This document shows, piece by piece, positions 3,102 to 31,317 of a stretch of 37,196 nt of DNA (position 1 is the stretch's first letter; every line of letters starts with the position of its first letter). Origin of the DNA: Bacteroidota bacterium (GTDB lineage: Bacteria; Bacteroidota; Rhodothermia; Rhodothermales; Bin80); assembly GCA_028873925.1 (NCBI GenBank), contig JAPPNA010000167.1, positions 1-37,196 of the forward strand. Reading direction: 5' to 3'. The notes below the pieces were generated by a model. The model was given only the letters and a program-made list of their open reading frames with translations. It did not search any database and was not told the origin of the DNA. The position numbers and the translations under genes are program-made.

Positions 3102-3229
3102 CGTTCACTCACGTTCCGGCCCGCCTGGTTGCTGAACCGCCTCGCGGACGATCCTTTGACACCGCAGTGCTTCATGCTACGTCGTTACCTCCATAACACG
3201 CCACGGCTGCTGCCATTCGGAGCGACAGT

Positions 3230-3300
3230 TAATGGGCGGGATTCGCACCCGCAAGGAAAACGCGCCTTTCCACGGCGCACGGCAATGATGTGCCAAAGAG
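3230..3300 (-). other. tRNA-Ser(GGA)-like fragment, possible attachment site
   Basis: On the minus strand two arms resemble a tRNA. An anticodon arm at 3278-3262 has a 5-bp GCGCC/GGCGC stem and a loop reading GTGGAAA, which would give anticodon GGA. A T-arm at 3252-3236 has a 5-bp GCGGG/CCCGC stem and loop TGCGAAT. A weak D-arm (GGC..GCC) precedes them. I could not pair a 7-bp acceptor stem, and no CCA follows. The best reading is a decayed or partial tRNA, perhaps left by integration of a mobile element into a tRNA gene. A chance pair of hairpins remains possible. Confidence 0.25.
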
Positions 3301-24459: not shown

Positions 24460-26442
24460 ATGAATGTCCAAGCCAAGCGGAAGCAGATGGCCCTCAGTGT
24501 GTGGCGCATCGGACTTGCGCCGCTATTCTTGTCGGTGCTGATACTCTCGGGATGCGGCGGTGCGCAGTTGCCTGACTGCGTCTCCATTAGCGAAGATCAG
24601 CGCAATGCGGCACCACCATTCCAGCGATCGGCGATGACGGATTCCATGGAATCCGTTCTCCAGGTTGTGTGCAGCGATTTAGCTGCACTTCGGGACACGC
24701 TCGCGGCCGTACCTGCGGCACCGGACACCACGCTGGCCAAGCGGATAGAGGTGCTATTGGACCGTCAGGTCCGAATGGATTCCCTGCTCCACGCAACGTT
24801 CATCACATGGATGTCAACAATTTCGGGTGAGCTGTCCCCCCAAGACACCGCCTCCTGGTCCCGGAATCTCGGAACAGGCTTTACCTATGACTCTTCCGCC
24901 TCCTATCTGACCCGCCTACTGGCCCTCTCTGACCATGTGACTCGGTTTGGTGAAGCCAGTGTCCCGCTCAGAGAGCGGATTGCGACGGGCCGGGCCGGAT
25001 ACGCCGGGAGGCTCCTTGGGCTGCACATCTCGCTGATGGACTCCCTGGATGGGCTGCTGCGGGTGACCTTGCAGCGCGGAGCAACTACGACACCGAGACA
25101 GCTCACGCTGGGACTTGACTCACTGTTTAACAGGCTCGCTCTCCTTGATGCAGCGCACACCGTGCTGGTGGAAATGCACGCGGCGTTCCTGGACACCACG
25201 GGAGGCGGAATCCTTCCTGTTGACCTTACGGCCGAAAGCGTGCGCACGCGCGAATTCATCTGGCAGATCAGGCAGGAGACGGACATTCTTCCCGAACTGG
25301 TGAGCCTCCTGGCTGCCCTCTCGGAGTACGCAATCGGCGGTCAGAACCACCTGTCCGGTCTACGTATGGAACAGACCCTTGCGCGGCTCCGAGACCTGGT
25401 GGATGCATTGATGGCAAAGAGCAGCATACTGGCAGATCTGCATTCCTCCCGCAGTTCCAACGACAGCCTTCGCCTGACGGCCAACGAGATGCGGAATGAA
25501 CTTCTGAGGCAGGGGTATATCTTGGCGGAATTACAGAAGGACTTTGCGCTGCTGGCGGATCGAGGCCAGCCAGCCATTCTGCTGCTGGAGAGGACCGCTG
25601 GATTGTATCTGGGGGTGCACGGAGAGCTGGAGGCGCTCACTGAAGTGCTGCTGGCGGAAATGGGCAGCGAACTGGCCAGTTACGGGACAAAAGTCGCGCT
25701 GATTGTGCTGCTCCTGGCGCTGTGCCTTCTGGTGATCCGATCCATGAATTGGCTGCTGAACCTGCTCGCGGAACGCTATGCGAGCCGCCGGCTGCTCTAC
25801 AAACGTCTTATCCCTGTGATGCGCCTGGCAGCGTGGAGTATTGCCATTTACGTCGCTCTCGCCTACATCCTGCAACTCGATCAGCGTAGTCTGCTGGCCG
25901 CCGGGGCCGCTATCGGTGTAGCGATAGGCTTTGCGGCGCAGGACATCGTCAAGAACGTCTTTGGCGGCATCATCATCATCTTCGGGCAGACGTTCCAGGT
26001 GGGCGACAAAATCAGAGTCGGAGGCACCTACGGAGAAGTGATTGCGATTGGACTGAGGGCAACCCGAATTGTCACGCTGGACGACAACGAAGTGACTGTG
26101 CCCAATGCCCATGTCATTGACAGCCAAGTAGCCAATGCTAACACCGGATCGCTGACCTGCCAGGTAGTCGTGGATCTCTATGTGCCCGGCTGGACAGAGG
26201 TTACCCAAGCAAAATCCATCGCCTACAGCGCTGCTGCCAACTCAAAATATGTGCACATGGGCAAGCCGATAGTAGTCCATGTCCAGGATACTTTCAAGGA
26301 AACGTTTCTGACCAAGCTCTCGGTCAAAGCTTATGTACTGGATACGCGGCACGAAGCCGCGTTCGCCAGTGAGGTAACCGAAACAGCGAAGGCTGAGTTT
26401 GCAGATGCCAGAATATTCAGGCTGCCAAAGCTCCGGCCATGA
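24460..26442 (+). CDS. MscS-type channel with lipoprotein-like periplasmic domain
   Basis: This 660-residue channel is unusual at the N-terminus. Residues 1-31 form a lipoprotein signal peptide with lipobox LSGC, so the mature protein would be lipid-anchored. About 370 helical residues follow, predicted periplasmic, with many Leu/Asp heptad-like stretches. Then come three membrane helices (about 405-430, 450-470, 475-510); the last is the Gly/Ala-rich pore helix GAAIGVAIGFAAQDIVKNVFGG. The C-terminal beta and alpha/beta domain (GQTFQVGDKIRVGG, then NAHVIDSQVAN) is typical of MscS. Such channels release solutes under membrane tension. It overlaps the next gene by 4 nt, so the two proteins are likely made together. 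Confidence 0.85.
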   Translation: MNVQAKRKQMALSVWRIGLAPLFLSVLILSGCGGAQLPDCVSISEDQRNAAPPFQRSAMTDSMESVLQVVCSDLAALRDTLAAVPAAPDTTLAKRIEVLLDRQVRMDSLLHATFITWMSTISGELSPQDTASWSRNLGTGFTYDSSASYLTRLLALSDHVTRFGEASVPLRERIATGRAGYAGRLLGLHISLMDSLDGLLRVTLQRGATTTPRQLTLGLDSLFNRLALLDAAHTVLVEMHAAFLDTTGGGILPVDLTAESVRTREFIWQIRQETDILPELVSLLAALSEYAIGGQNHLSGLRMEQTLARLRDLVDALMAKSSILADLHSSRSSNDSLRLTANEMRNELLRQGYILAELQKDFALLADRGQPAILLLERTAGLYLGVHGELEALTEVLLAEMGSELASYGTKVALIVLLLALCLLVIRSMNWLLNLLAERYASRRLLYKRLIPVMRLAAWSIAIYVALAYILQLDQRSLLAAGAAIGVAIGFAAQDIVKNVFGGIIIIFGQTFQVGDKIRVGGTYGEVIAIGLRATRIVTLDDNEVTVPNAHVIDSQVANANTGSLTCQVVVDLYVPGWTEVTQAKSIAYSAAANSKYVHMGKPIVVHVQDTFKETFLTKLSVKAYVLDTRHEAAFASEVTETAKAEFADARIFRLPKLRP

Positions 26443-29400
26443 ACCCTCCCGAAAGCCATTCGCAGGTGACATCATCCTGGCCCTTGCTTGATGATACGCT
26501 GGACAGCCTGGTGCACCAGGCGGATGAGTCCGCAGGCCAGGCGCTGGCCTCCTGGCATGAGCAGTCTGAGGCGCAGTTGTTCGGGCCTCTTCGCACCGTG
26601 TCAGCTGCAGCGGGCAAGCAGCATAAACAGACCTTGGCGCAGCTCTCATCATTGCGGCAGCCGATCTCCACGGAATCCATCTCTGCTTATCGGATGGCTG
26701 TTACGCGCGAAGTGCTCATCCCCATAGCAAAGGGGCTGGATACGCTTGCTCCCGCAGAGTTACCCGACCCGCACAGCCTGCTTAATGAGGCCCTCAACCG
26801 ACTGATCAGCAATGCCGACACGCTCCGCACACTCCCGCTTTCACTGAAATTCTATGCATCTGCGCCCGGGCAGAAGCGCTGGATGACCCGGCGGCTCATT
26901 TGGTGCCGCCACCGGGCCATAAATCACCTCAGATCGCTATTGAACAAGCCCCGAAAACCGCTTATACGCGATGTGCCCGTCCGATCACTGCTAAAGTTCC
27001 ATGCGCAGGTTCGATTGGCCCGTACGGCAGCCAGCCTCCGGGAATCCGGTGAGCAGCAACTGGCATTTCTGGTCGCTTCTGTAACGGCGGGCTTTACGGC
27101 GTGGACCCAGGATATATTGGCCTTGGAACGGAACTGCGGCACCGATGAACAAATAGAGCATGCGTCCCCTACCGCCAATCTCAATGACCCTTCAGTCACG
27201 CTGCTGAAGATTGCCAGCGCACTTCAGGAGGTGCTGGATAATGTCGCTTTGAACAGCCGTTTACAGGACCCCATTGCCGCCGGAATTTTGACCGCTGATG
27301 CCCAGCAGCTGCGTGCTGATCTGAGATGTGCCGGAACCGTGCTGTTGAAAGCTCGCAGGCGCCAGGTCCCGCCGGGACCAACCGGCAGGACGCAACCATC
27401 CAGTTGGGTACCTTGGCACCGACATGAGCGCCGTAGGCTGGAGCTGAATAACTCCGTATTGCAATGGCAGAGTACGCTCAACCGCTGCCGGGACGACATG
27501 CTGCAACGGGCATTTTCGTTAGCCGTAGCCCCGGTCAAAGACACATTCCGTTCCCTCACCGTTGAGCTGGACCATGCGCAAGAGCACTGCGGCAGGCATG
27601 ATGCCGACAAATTGGCCGACGCTTTGCGGCACCACACTGAGGTTACGCTGATCGGGCTGCGAAACGCGCTCGGCAAACTGCCGGGATTAATGGCCGCAGA
27701 TGCAGAACTGGCTAACCCCGGCCAAGATGCGCGGGACCAGCTCTTAGCGGTGGCGGATGGCCTGCCCGAAGAACTTGCCCTGCATCCGGTGCCGCAACCG
27801 GGAATCCCTATCGTACCGGCGGCAAAGCCGGAGCTCCGCAATCTGCGGCAGGAAGTCCTCCGAGCGTTGGCCCCCATGCAGGACCTCCTAAAGGACTGCG
27901 CCCGTCCGTTGCGCAAGAAGCTGGTGGACTTGTGGACGGAGTCAGAATCGGCTATCGGTGTCGTGGAATTCGGGTTGAAGGGAGCCTTGACGGAGCTGGA
28001 AGAAAACCGTTCGGCTGATAATGCACGCGAACTGGCAGAGGGAGGCTTTCAGAGAGCTGTAGCGCTGTTGCAGGATCTGTCCGATTCCCTCACCCCACCC
28101 TGGGAAGACTTTGTCCGGTGCGTTCATCGGCTGTATAAGCAGCAGTCTTCTGATATTCACCACTGCCTTCGCGCTGAAGCGAATATTGAAGAGCGCGTGC
28201 AAGGCGTTAAGGTCAGACTGCGCAGAGCATCTGAACTGCTTCGCAGGCGGGTGAAACTCAGTTTCCAATCATATCGCTCGTTGGCGACCAGACTGTTTAG
28301 ACTCGGTCAAAGCCGGGCTGGCGGCCTGATTGAACGCGGCCGGTCAGCCATGGGTGTAGCGGAGGAAATCGAACGCGACCGGCTCGTCACCATGGAAGGC
28401 ATCGATCCTGTTCGAATTGCGGCACGATTGGACAACCTTCCACTGGTTTACCGCAGACTGTTTGCGCTGCAGCCGGTCAGCCTTGCCTGGCAGTTGGAGG
28501 GTCGGTCTGCTGAACTGGCATATGTGAAGGCCGGTGTTGAACGCTGGCGACAGGGGCACGCCATGAGACCCCTGATGATACCCATGCTCCCGGGGAGCGG
28601 GCGTACAAGCCTTGTGCATGTAATTGCCTCCCACTTCAGTTCGTCCATGCGCGTTGATACACTCACGCTGAGTCACCGCCGTTCCGGGCCGGATGACTTT
28701 GTCTCCCACGCAGCGCGCATTACCGGTGTGAAGGCTGGTTCCTGGCTTGAATTGGAAGAAGCCTTGAACAGGTCCGGGCCGCGGATATGTCTGCTGGACA
28801 ATCTGGAGCATCTGATGCTTCGCACGCAGGGGGGTGTTGACCTGATGGAGGAATTACTCCTGCTAATGTCAAATACGGTCTCGCGGGTGCACTGGATTGC
28901 AGCCGTCAGCCAATTCGCCTGGCAGTACCTTGAGAAAGCTCTCCAGCACATTGCCGACCTCACCGACGTTCATCCCGCATCCGCCTTGACCAAGGATTTC
29001 TTGGCTGGCATGATGCTCAACCGACATCAGCGAAGCGGCCTCAAACTTCAATTTGCCCTACCGGCGACCGCTCCCCAGGTTCTCTCTCGGCGACTCAGGT
29101 ATACACGCAGCGACACGGCCCGACAGGCCCTGTTGCGTGACCATTGGTTTGATCGGTTGTTCAGCTCCTGCGGCTCCAACCTGCGCCTGGCGTTAGCGTA
29201 TTGGCTGCGCACCATTGTGATAGAAGACGGCGCGGTAACGGTACGCCCACACACCCCGTTCAGCTTCCGTTTCCTTGAGTCCATAGGCTTAATGCATACC
29301 TTCGCCCTGAAGGCGTTCCTGATCCACAACACGCTCTCGCTGAAAGAGCATGGCATGGTACTCCGCATGACGAATGCAGAAAGCCGCGTCGTGTTGCATT

Positions 29401-29543
29401 CACTGATCAATCAGGGGCTCGTCGTGCCCTGCAGGTCGGACCTGGATCCAGATGCCGTTGAGACAAAACAGCGATATCGCCTTCACCCGTTCGTCCTGTT
29501 TCCCGTGCAGCAACACCTCCGCAAAATGAATATTATCCACTGA
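26439..29543 (+). CDS. Large helical protein with degenerate C-terminal P-loop ATPase domain
   Basis: I do not recognise this 1034-residue family. It has no signal peptide or membrane helix, so it should be cytoplasmic. Residues about 1-670 are almost wholly helical, with Leu-, Arg- and Glu-rich segments suggesting long bundles or coiled coils. From about 690 an AAA/STAND-like module appears: a Walker-A-like loop LPGSGRTS at 717-724 with Arg722 where Lys is expected, and a Walker-B-like ICLLDN with D787-N788 in place of DE or DD. A VHWIAAVSQ strand follows, then a basic helical C-terminus that could be a winged helix (about 960-1030). ATP binding may persist, but hydrolysis is doubtful. Its ATG overlaps the MscS stop by 4 nt. 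Confidence 0.7.
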   Translation: MNPPESHSQVTSSWPLLDDTLDSLVHQADESAGQALASWHEQSEAQLFGPLRTVSAAAGKQHKQTLAQLSSLRQPISTESISAYRMAVTREVLIPIAKGLDTLAPAELPDPHSLLNEALNRLISNADTLRTLPLSLKFYASAPGQKRWMTRRLIWCRHRAINHLRSLLNKPRKPLIRDVPVRSLLKFHAQVRLARTAASLRESGEQQLAFLVASVTAGFTAWTQDILALERNCGTDEQIEHASPTANLNDPSVTLLKIASALQEVLDNVALNSRLQDPIAAGILTADAQQLRADLRCAGTVLLKARRRQVPPGPTGRTQPSSWVPWHRHERRRLELNNSVLQWQSTLNRCRDDMLQRAFSLAVAPVKDTFRSLTVELDHAQEHCGRHDADKLADALRHHTEVTLIGLRNALGKLPGLMAADAELANPGQDARDQLLAVADGLPEELALHPVPQPGIPIVPAAKPELRNLRQEVLRALAPMQDLLKDCARPLRKKLVDLWTESESAIGVVEFGLKGALTELEENRSADNARELAEGGFQRAVALLQDLSDSLTPPWEDFVRCVHRLYKQQSSDIHHCLRAEANIEERVQGVKVRLRRASELLRRRVKLSFQSYRSLATRLFRLGQSRAGGLIERGRSAMGVAEEIERDRLVTMEGIDPVRIAARLDNLPLVYRRLFALQPVSLAWQLEGRSAELAYVKAGVERWRQGHAMRPLMIPMLPGSGRTSLVHVIASHFSSSMRVDTLTLSHRRSGPDDFVSHAARITGVKAGSWLELEEALNRSGPRICLLDNLEHLMLRTQGGVDLMEELLLLMSNTVSRVHWIAAVSQFAWQYLEKALQHIADLTDVHPASALTKDFLAGMMLNRHQRSGLKLQFALPATAPQVLSRRLRYTRSDTARQALLRDHWFDRLFSSCGSNLRLALAYWLRTIVIEDGAVTVRPHTPFSFRFLESIGLMHTFALKAFLIHNTLSLKEHGMVLRMTNAESRVVLHSLINQGLVVPCRSDLDPDAVETKQRYRLHPFVLFPVQQHLRKMNIIH

Positions 29544-29621: not shown

Positions 29622-29732
29622 CTACAATTCCGCATGCCAGCCCGCCCATGGTTGCGCTTGATCGATATCCTCGGTGTCATCCAGCCGCAGAAACCGGGCA
29701 GGTCGGTCAACAGTGTGCGGATTTGAGATCAT
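29622..29732 (-). CDS. Possible 36-residue ORF between operons
   Basis: The frame starts at ATG 29732 and ends TAG at 29624-29622. The product (its middle reads RFLRLDDTEDIDQAQPWAGW) has a balanced, protein-like composition but no family I recognise. It runs antisense to the 217-bp gap before the OLD-like gene. It could be a remnant of a longer gene or chance. Confidence 0.2.
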   Translation of the reverse strand: MISNPHTVDRPARFLRLDDTEDIDQAQPWAGWHAEL

Positions 29733-29760
29733 CAAATGTCTGATACACAGGCCTGGAACC

Positions 29761-31317
29761 ATGATTGAGTGGCGCCTGGAAGATTTATGGAACAGCCTTT
29801 CCGGAAAGATGCCGCATATGCCGCATTTCCTTGAGAGCATCAAGCTGCAGGGGATTCGCGGTATCAGGGACCTCCAGGTACGGTTCAGACACCCTGTATG
29901 TGTTCTCGCCGGACGCAACGCGACGGGCAAGTCTACGGTTCTTTTTGGTGCTGCTTGTGCCTACAGCGTGCCTGGCTCGGGGGTTCGAGATTTCGTTCCG
30001 GCGACCCTGTTCCCGGACTACCGCCCAAAGTTCGGTGATAGGAGGGACGAGCGTACCCCAATATCGCTTGATTTCAGCTACTCCACCCCGACCGGATTAC
30101 AGAGGATGCGCTGGAGGCGGATGAAAGGTTGGAATCGAAGCTTTTTCGGAGATAGGAACGCTGTACAGCCGGTGCGCCGTGTATACCTGCGTACGTTGAG
30201 CAATCTGAGCAATCCGTCCGAGGTGCGCGGGATCTTGAGCATGAATCGACTCAGGAGTCCGCCAAAGGAAGAGGCGCTAACAGCTCTACAGCTTGAATTG
30301 GCCCAGCGAATGCTACCGTTCAGGTATTCTGAAGTGCACCGATTGCACAGTGGTACCAAGAGCCTGCTGTTCGCCTTGCAGAAAAATGGCCCAGCCTATT
30401 CAGAGCTTCATATGGCAGCTGGCGAACGAGTACTCTTTCGCCTTTCGCAGGCAATAGGGCACTTGCAGGACGCGCTTGTTCTTATTGATGAGGTAGAGGC
30501 CGGTCTGCATCCCTTTGCCCAGCAGCTCCTCATGGTGCAGCTGCAGCAGCTCGCCCTGCGCAACAATATCCAGGTGATTGTAACCACGCACAGTCCGGTT
30601 GTGCTGGACTGCGTTCCGTCGATTGCCCGAATCTTTATGGAGCGGAGTGAATCGGGCAATGTATATGTGCAGGAGCCTTATAGGGATATCCTCCAGAATG
30701 CGTTCTATGGCCGCAGCAGTCAGCAGTTGAAAATACTTTGTGAGGATCAGGCTGCAGAGGCCATCCTGGAAGGCGTTGTTGATCTGCTGATCCCCAGACT
30801 CAAGATGCGCAGAGATGCCGTTGTTATAGGGCGCAATACCGGAGCTGATGAATTTGCGTCCCATGCGCGCGCGTTCAGAAAATTCCGATTGGTTGACGAA
30901 TTTGTGTTCGTGCTGGATGGCGACCAGAGAGAGGGCGCAATCAGGCAGAAAATCGCTGATGCGGCCGAGACCAGTTCCGTTCGAATCCTATACCTGCCGG
31001 GTGACGAGGCTCCGGAAGTATGGATCTGGACCCGTCTGTCGCGCGAGACAAATTACCTGGCAGGCGCGCTGCGCCAGAATCCGCAGTTGTTGGCCAGCCA
31101 AATCCGCGACTTGAACAGCACCTTTGATGCCGCGTCTGATACTAAGGCTGAAATTGCCAAAGCTAAACTTCGCGGCCTGAGCAGGGTGATTCGGCTGAAG
31201 CCGGCTCAAATCTGCCAGCAAGTCGCTTTTGCCGAGGCGCGTCGGGATTCCGGCGACATTGAGCCACTGGTGACCGACCTGATTGATGCGGTTTCGCACT
31301 GGCGGAACTCCAACTGA
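29761..31317 (+). CDS. OLD-like AAA ATPase with TOPRIM domain
   Basis: This 518-residue protein combines an ABC-type ATPase with a TOPRIM nuclease-like end, the OLD-family layout. Walker A is GRNATGKS at 51-58. An ABC-signature-like AAGERVLF lies near residue 220, Walker B is VLIDEVEAGLHP near 240, and the H-loop TTHSP near 277. The TOPRIM part has CEDQAAEAIL (first acidic cluster, about 324-333) and VLDGD (second, about 384-388). Known relatives (P2 Old, Gabija GajA and others) cut DNA and often act in phage defence. The ATG at 29761 is chosen; the alternative M17 or M20 also keeps the ATPase. It follows the helical ATPase gene by 217 bp, so it may be separately transcribed. Confidence 0.82.
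   Translation: MIEWRLEDLWNSLSGKMPHMPHFLESIKLQGIRGIRDLQVRFRHPVCVLAGRNATGKSTVLFGAACAYSVPGSGVRDFVPATLFPDYRPKFGDRRDERTPISLDFSYSTPTGLQRMRWRRMKGWNRSFFGDRNAVQPVRRVYLRTLSNLSNPSEVRGILSMNRLRSPPKEEALTALQLELAQRMLPFRYSEVHRLHSGTKSLLFALQKNGPAYSELHMAAGERVLFRLSQAIGHLQDALVLIDEVEAGLHPFAQQLLMVQLQQLALRNNIQVIVTTHSPVVLDCVPSIARIFMERSESGNVYVQEPYRDILQNAFYGRSSQQLKILCEDQAAEAILEGVVDLLIPRLKMRRDAVVIGRNTGADEFASHARAFRKFRLVDEFVFVLDGDQREGAIRQKIADAAETSSVRILYLPGDEAPEVWIWTRLSRETNYLAGALRQNPQLLASQIRDLNSTFDAASDTKAEIAKAKLRGLSRVIRLKPAQICQQVAFAEARRDSGDIEPLVTDLIDAVSHWRNSN

Follow-up and report, generated by a model that had tools for sequence, protein, structure and literature searches.

Pores that open in response to membrane tension and nothing else have their classic example in the MscS channels. 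Some MscS subfamilies have shown no response to tension, and stimuli or factors of another kind have been suggested for them (PMC4560390). The locus described here raises the question of what a large cytoplasmic protein might do for such a channel. Within the window, by which we mean the whole stretch of 37,196 nucleotides that was analysed (contig JAPPNA010000167.1 of a Rhodothermales bacterium), an MscS-type channel gene of 660 codons (24460-26442, + strand) runs directly into a gene for a 1034-residue protein on the same strand (26439-29543), the stop codon of the first overlapping the start codon of the second in the four letters ATGA (26439-26442), an arrangement that recurs in relatives. 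A preliminary description of this DNA had reported a lipoprotein-type MscS channel that overlaps the larger reading frame by ATGA, and both reading frames and the overlap were found where it had placed them, together with a lipobox.

The channel gene was assigned by its open reading frame, by Pfam, by Foldseek and by AlphaFold2 (AF2) modeling. Its product is laid out as a signal sequence, a predicted helical periplasmic region of about 370 residues, transmembrane helices and a cytoplasmic cage. The signal sequence ends in the lipobox LSGC (aa 29-32, 24544-24555, + strand), recognized by inspection and by a pattern scan, and the same scan found a lipobox-like motif in 12 of the 20 fetched relatives in which the MscS gene comes first (L068, L069, L072, L073, L075, L077-L079, L082, L083, L048 and L049). 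Ion channels with what looks like a lipoprotein signal are thus common in the taxonomic order of the window and were rare among the few partners checked from loci in which the AAA gene comes first. The channel domain proper (25687-26424, + strand; Pfam and AF2) is made of transmembrane helices, a beta-domain and a divergent C-terminal alpha/beta domain. The beta-domain matched PF00924 at aa 495-561 (E=4.5e-19), Foldseek returned MscK and MscS with E values of 2e-13 to 6e-13, and the AF2 model had a pLDDT of about 95 at aa 410-655, with lower values in the N-terminal region.

All 47 of the aligned partner channels matched PF00924, whereas none of the 47 matched PF21082, the canonical MscS C-terminal cytoplasmic domain, which was found in 4 of 4 neighboring paralogues. 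In the window channel, AF2 still predicts an MscS-like alpha/beta domain where PF21082 fails. Inclusion in the MscS superfamily is defined by the pore helix and the beta-domain, PF21082 being usual and not required (PMC4560390); the membership of the window channel therefore stands, and by its sequence it is a member of the superfamily. Like E. coli MscS and MscK it has pore helix and beta-domain homology and a predicted alpha/beta cage, and like MscK a long periplasmic N-terminal extension, but unlike either it has a cytosolic AAA partner of its own, the gene for which is adjacent. It also departs from the norm of the superfamily in a cage too divergent for PF21082, as in all of its aligned counterparts, and in the lipobox carried by many channels of its order. 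A divergent cage is what might be expected of a special docking surface. In a phylogenetic tree the AAA-linked channels formed one group, separate from the paralogues, and the topology mostly followed taxonomy; this was a quick tree with long branches, in which the position of the SLC12-linked channels is unsure.

The partner (26439-29543) was defined by its reading frame, by family searches and by AF2. It has no membrane segment apparent from sequence and is taken as cytoplasmic. No Pfam, NCBIfam or PADLOC model matched it above cutoff (PF00004 reached E=0.0037 in the window protein, below cutoff) and a single-sequence search found no relative in the PDB, in keeping with the earlier remark that the protein belonged to no recognizable family; that remark does not hold for the C-terminal third, which is an Orc/Cdc6-like AAA+ domain followed by a winged helix. 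The AF2 model, built with 37 relatives in the alignment (pLDDT 88, pTM 0.72), contains N-terminal helical bundles (aa ~13-660, 26475-28418), an AAA+ domain (aa ~690-925, 28506-29213; also Foldseek and profile search) and a C-terminal winged helix (aa ~944-1034, 29268-29540; also MarR-type wHTH profile matches and Foldseek), all on the + strand. The helical bundles and C-terminal P-loop-like module of the preliminary description are thereby borne out, the module being weak by sequence and clear as an AAA+ fold with winged helix in the model. The closest solved folds were those of Orc/Cdc6 (Foldseek E=1.3e-6, probability 1.00), at 11-15% identity and with whole-query TM-scores of no more than 0.2, and a profile search likewise returned Cdc6 (E=2.9e-6) together with MarR-type wHTH proteins. 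In Balneola-type loci (L062, L063, L064 and others) the AAA partner has only about 440-466 residues, most of the helical N-terminal region being absent. At about 448 aa the Balneola AAA protein lacks the helical N-terminus, so this region can be dispensed with, and what stays constant is the AAA-winged-helix core.

With Orc1/Cdc6 and other winged-helix ATPases of the AAA+ initiator clade, the partner shares the succession of an AAA+ core and a winged helix. It differs from Orc1/Cdc6 in its degenerate Walker motifs, in its long helical N-terminus and in being linked to channels and transporters instead of replication. The partner thus resembles Orc/Cdc6 in its modeled fold, and it is not filed here as an active Orc/Cdc6 ATPase since the catalytic motifs fail in the window. 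Where an intact Walker A motif reads GxxGxGK[ST], the alignment of the window protein gives GSGRTS (aa 719-724, 28593-28610, + strand), with arginine in place of lysine, and its Walker B reads LLDNLE, so that neither the Walker A nor the combined Walker A and B pattern is intact. The Walker A lysine was scored over 121 distinct homologues: none of the 32 from the order of the window carries it, arginine being usual there, as against 80 of the 89 from elsewhere. At the position of the Walker B glutamate most aligned members have N, G, S or H. With the lysine lost in all 32 proteins of the order, the window protein is unlikely to hydrolyze ATP, and an ATP-driven cycle is unlikely in that order. 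The window protein may therefore be a pseudo-ATPase, and regulation in its order would probably rely on nucleotide binding without hydrolysis or be nucleotide-free.

How closely the two proteins belong together was examined in 196 genomes of the class, which were searched for the AAA protein with MscS left out of account and, separately, for the channel domain, the channel subfamily (E<=2e-41) being set apart from ordinary paralogues (E>=6e-30) by a sharp gap. The channel subfamily was found in 86 genomes, the AAA protein in 87 and both in 85, leaving one genome with the channel only and two with the AAA protein only (Fisher p=3e-52). In the sole genome with the channel and no AAA match (G449), the channel begins at base 9 of its contig. 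The two genes lay within 2.5 kb of each other in 82 of the 85 pairs, and in the remaining three they were split over different contigs. Over all loci fetched, an MscS gene on the same strand, detected by HMM, directly adjoins 112 of the 121 distinct AAA proteins, to which one further locus (L058) is added by Pfam only; six of the 121 are truncated by a contig or locus end, and 113 of the other 115 stand beside MscS. Two real exceptions were seen, namely an antiporter-type fusion (L123) and a divergent AAA relative (L132, 4574-9942) whose neighbor is a CASTOR/POLLUX-RCK-type channel (PF06241, E=7e-17). The pairing of channel and AAA protein is close to obligate. The preliminary description had proposed that the two products act together and had named homologues found mostly without an adjacent MscS gene as the result that would speak against this; such homologues were almost never encountered.

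The order of the two genes varies. The channel comes first in the taxonomic order of the window and in one other locus (L120), and the AAA gene comes first elsewhere. In the MscS tree the channel-first arrangement forms one clade (SH-aLRT 98), with L120 falling inside the AAA-first group, which implies two or more changes of gene order, the genes remaining adjacent throughout. As linkage that outlasts rearrangement says more than linkage alone, a shared function is the better supported. The ATGA overlap occurs at 24 of the 112 distinct junctions (16 of the 29 in which MscS is first). It had been suggested from this overlap that the two products are made in a fixed ratio; the overlap is present and recurrent, but at this share of junctions synthesis in a fixed ratio is no rule for the family as a whole. 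Scans for promoters and terminators around the operon gave sites no more numerous than in shuffled sequence.

In other families the AAA module was found as the C-terminal part of a transporter. One such protein (L054) has an Na_H_Exchanger domain (E=3.8e-21) to which five others (L050, L051, L053, L055 and L056) are homologous over the exchanger N-terminus, and L123 more weakly. Three more are fusions with AA_permease and SLC12 domains (L058, 4986-10079, - strand; L059, 179-5419, + strand; L185, 5533-10644, - strand). The latter three are bacterial SLC12-type proteins, that is, cation-chloride cotransporter-like, with a C-terminal AAA module. An MscS gene follows every transporter-AAA fusion except L123. 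Genes for TrkH and TrkA lie near the L050-L056 group and L052, an SLC12 gene near L116 and more weakly near L115, CorA near L060, L116 and L121, and an Na/Ca exchanger near L121, and additional MscS genes occur near some AAA relatives. The immediate neighbors of the window pair are not ion-homeostasis genes.

Taken with the near-obligate pairing, these associations make it probable, in our judgment, that the two genes encode a conserved unit of two proteins by which the flux of ions and osmolytes is controlled, with the AAA protein as a dedicated regulator of the MscS pore. The preliminary description had spoken of a channel that opens to release solutes or to kill the cell; release is favored by the transporter fusions and the Trk, CorA and SLC12 neighbors, while killing is disfavored, and the best reading of the pair is a flux control module and not a toxin. 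An MscS-type heptamer would form the pore. The AAA-winged-helix protein would most likely dock on the divergent cytoplasmic cage, and once docked it might shift the opening threshold or hold the channel shut. The trigger would be a cytoplasmic cue such as ionic strength, K+ or nucleotide state, and the modules fused to transporters would likewise adjust uptake or exchange. In E. coli, the cytosolic protein FtsZ was reported to be bound by the cytoplasmic portion of MscS (PMC4440785). Since the module is fused to exchanger-like and SLC12-type transporters and lies near Trk genes, one kind of sensor could coordinate the release of solutes with the uptake of ions. More tentatively, we consider it possible that the module represents an undescribed class of cytoplasmic AAA+ control modules (pseudo-ATPases in some lineages), common to MscS, Na+/H+-exchanger-like, SLC12-type and CASTOR/POLLUX-type proteins and serving in many phyla as a shared sensor of ionic conditions or turgor by which the release of solutes and the uptake of ions are both set.

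A role as chaperone or assembly factor, in which the AAA protein remodels or stabilizes the MscS heptamer and does not act on its opening, would also be compatible with the linkage taken by itself. Such a quality-control factor would be consistent with the AAA+ fold, with translational coupling at many loci and with the one-to-one linkage. We regard it as unlikely, as remodeling AAA+ enzymes do not resemble a family in which the P-loop lysine is gone throughout one order and the glutamate of Walker B is mostly replaced, and fusion to unrelated transporters better suits a regulatory domain.

An anti-phage abortive system, with a STAND-like AAA sensor of infection opening the MscS pore so that the cell is killed or arrested, is suggested by weak matches to AAA_16 and nSTAND models in relatives, by a patchy presence, and by a HEC-04-like putative defense ATPase 130 bp downstream of the pair with a serine recombinase farther along. 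PADLOC, however, has no match for either protein (E<=1), the Balneolaceae neighborhood is stable and not defense-like, the cation-transporter fusions and Trk and CorA neighbors point elsewhere, and the channel tree is largely taxonomic. None of the other loci examined has a counterpart of the HEC-04-like gene, and because this gene is not conserved beside the pair we set this reading low and hold it to be quite improbable. The resemblance to STAND NTPases (NACHT, nSTAND) consists of weak AAA_16, nSTAND1/3 and NACHT matches in relatives, with all STAND models below their curated cutoffs; the window protein itself matched no NACHT, NB-ARC or nSTAND model in Pfam. Unlike STAND proteins, the AAA chain ends in its winged helix at aa 1034, without C-terminal superstructure-forming sensor repeats and without a PADLOC match.

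Least probable of all, and very doubtful, is a DNA-linked role in which the winged helix ties the chromosome or the transcription of osmotic genes to the channel, as Orc/Cdc6 initiators, the nearest solved folds, do bind DNA through this domain and MarR-type wHTH profiles match, but the Orc/Cdc6 likeness is slight (whole-query TM-scores <=0.2, 11-15% identity), the module sits directly behind membrane transporters in the fusions, and no replication genes are conserved nearby. A housekeeping role in replication, raised by the Orc fold, was rejected on linkage.

A regulator of flux, the reading preferred here, has parallels among known systems. In RCK/KTN proteins (TrkA, Kef-type), a cytoplasmic nucleotide-fold module is the partner of, or is fused to, K+ channels and cation antiporters. 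The AAA module is likewise partnered with or fused to ion transport proteins, and Trk genes adjoin some of its relatives, but its fold is AAA+ and not Rossmann, and the window protein has no TrkA_N or RCK match. Bacterial cyclic-nucleotide-gated channels (bCNG) are ligand-regulated relatives of MscS (cited in PMC4560390), and they resemble the proposed unit in that a cytoplasmic module, alone or together with tension, would control an MscS pore. They differ from it in that Pfam detected no cyclic-nucleotide-binding domain in the window channel or the 47 partners, the putative regulator being a separate AAA+-type gene. As a factor other than tension, a near-obligate cytosolic partner that is also fused to exchanger-like and bacterial SLC12-like transporters is a concrete candidate, and it could link ion release with uptake through one kind of sensor. 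As a two-gene cassette, the locus makes the question of regulation directly testable, and the pairing offers a first approach to the function of a large, uncharacterized protein family. Among open-licence PubMed Central papers, with subscription papers and preprints outside the scope, no description of the pair or of the transporter-AAA fusions was found.

Near-obligate pairing in several phyla, with relatives of the AAA protein also fused to cation transporters, suggests a previously undescribed bacterial control of ion release. The named relatives from Balneolota and Bacteroidota include Aliifodinibius, Gracilimonas, Balneola, Aquimarina and Splendidivirga; relatives in named organisms were reached through a Balneolales alignment, a single-protein scan of named genomes having given none. 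The record labels of other relatives are Gemmatimonadota, Calditrichota, KSB1, Acidobacteriota, Thermodesulfobacteriota, Pseudomonadota and Myxococcota, many being metagenome bins in which single labels may be wrong. Within the family of the window, presence is patchy (5 of 16 genomes).

As to the remainder of the window, the HEC-04-like gene (29674-31317, + strand) encodes 547 residues, matched PADLOC HEC-04 with E=8.5e-40 and also matches OLD/PtuA-type AAA_15/AAA_21 ATPases. The serine recombinase, with Resolvase and Recombinase domains, lies near the contig end (36044-37144, + strand), and together these two genes may mark a mobile or defense island. On the opposite strand, part of a group II intron (D1-D4-4, Rfam RF02003, 60 bits) was found at 3109-3254.
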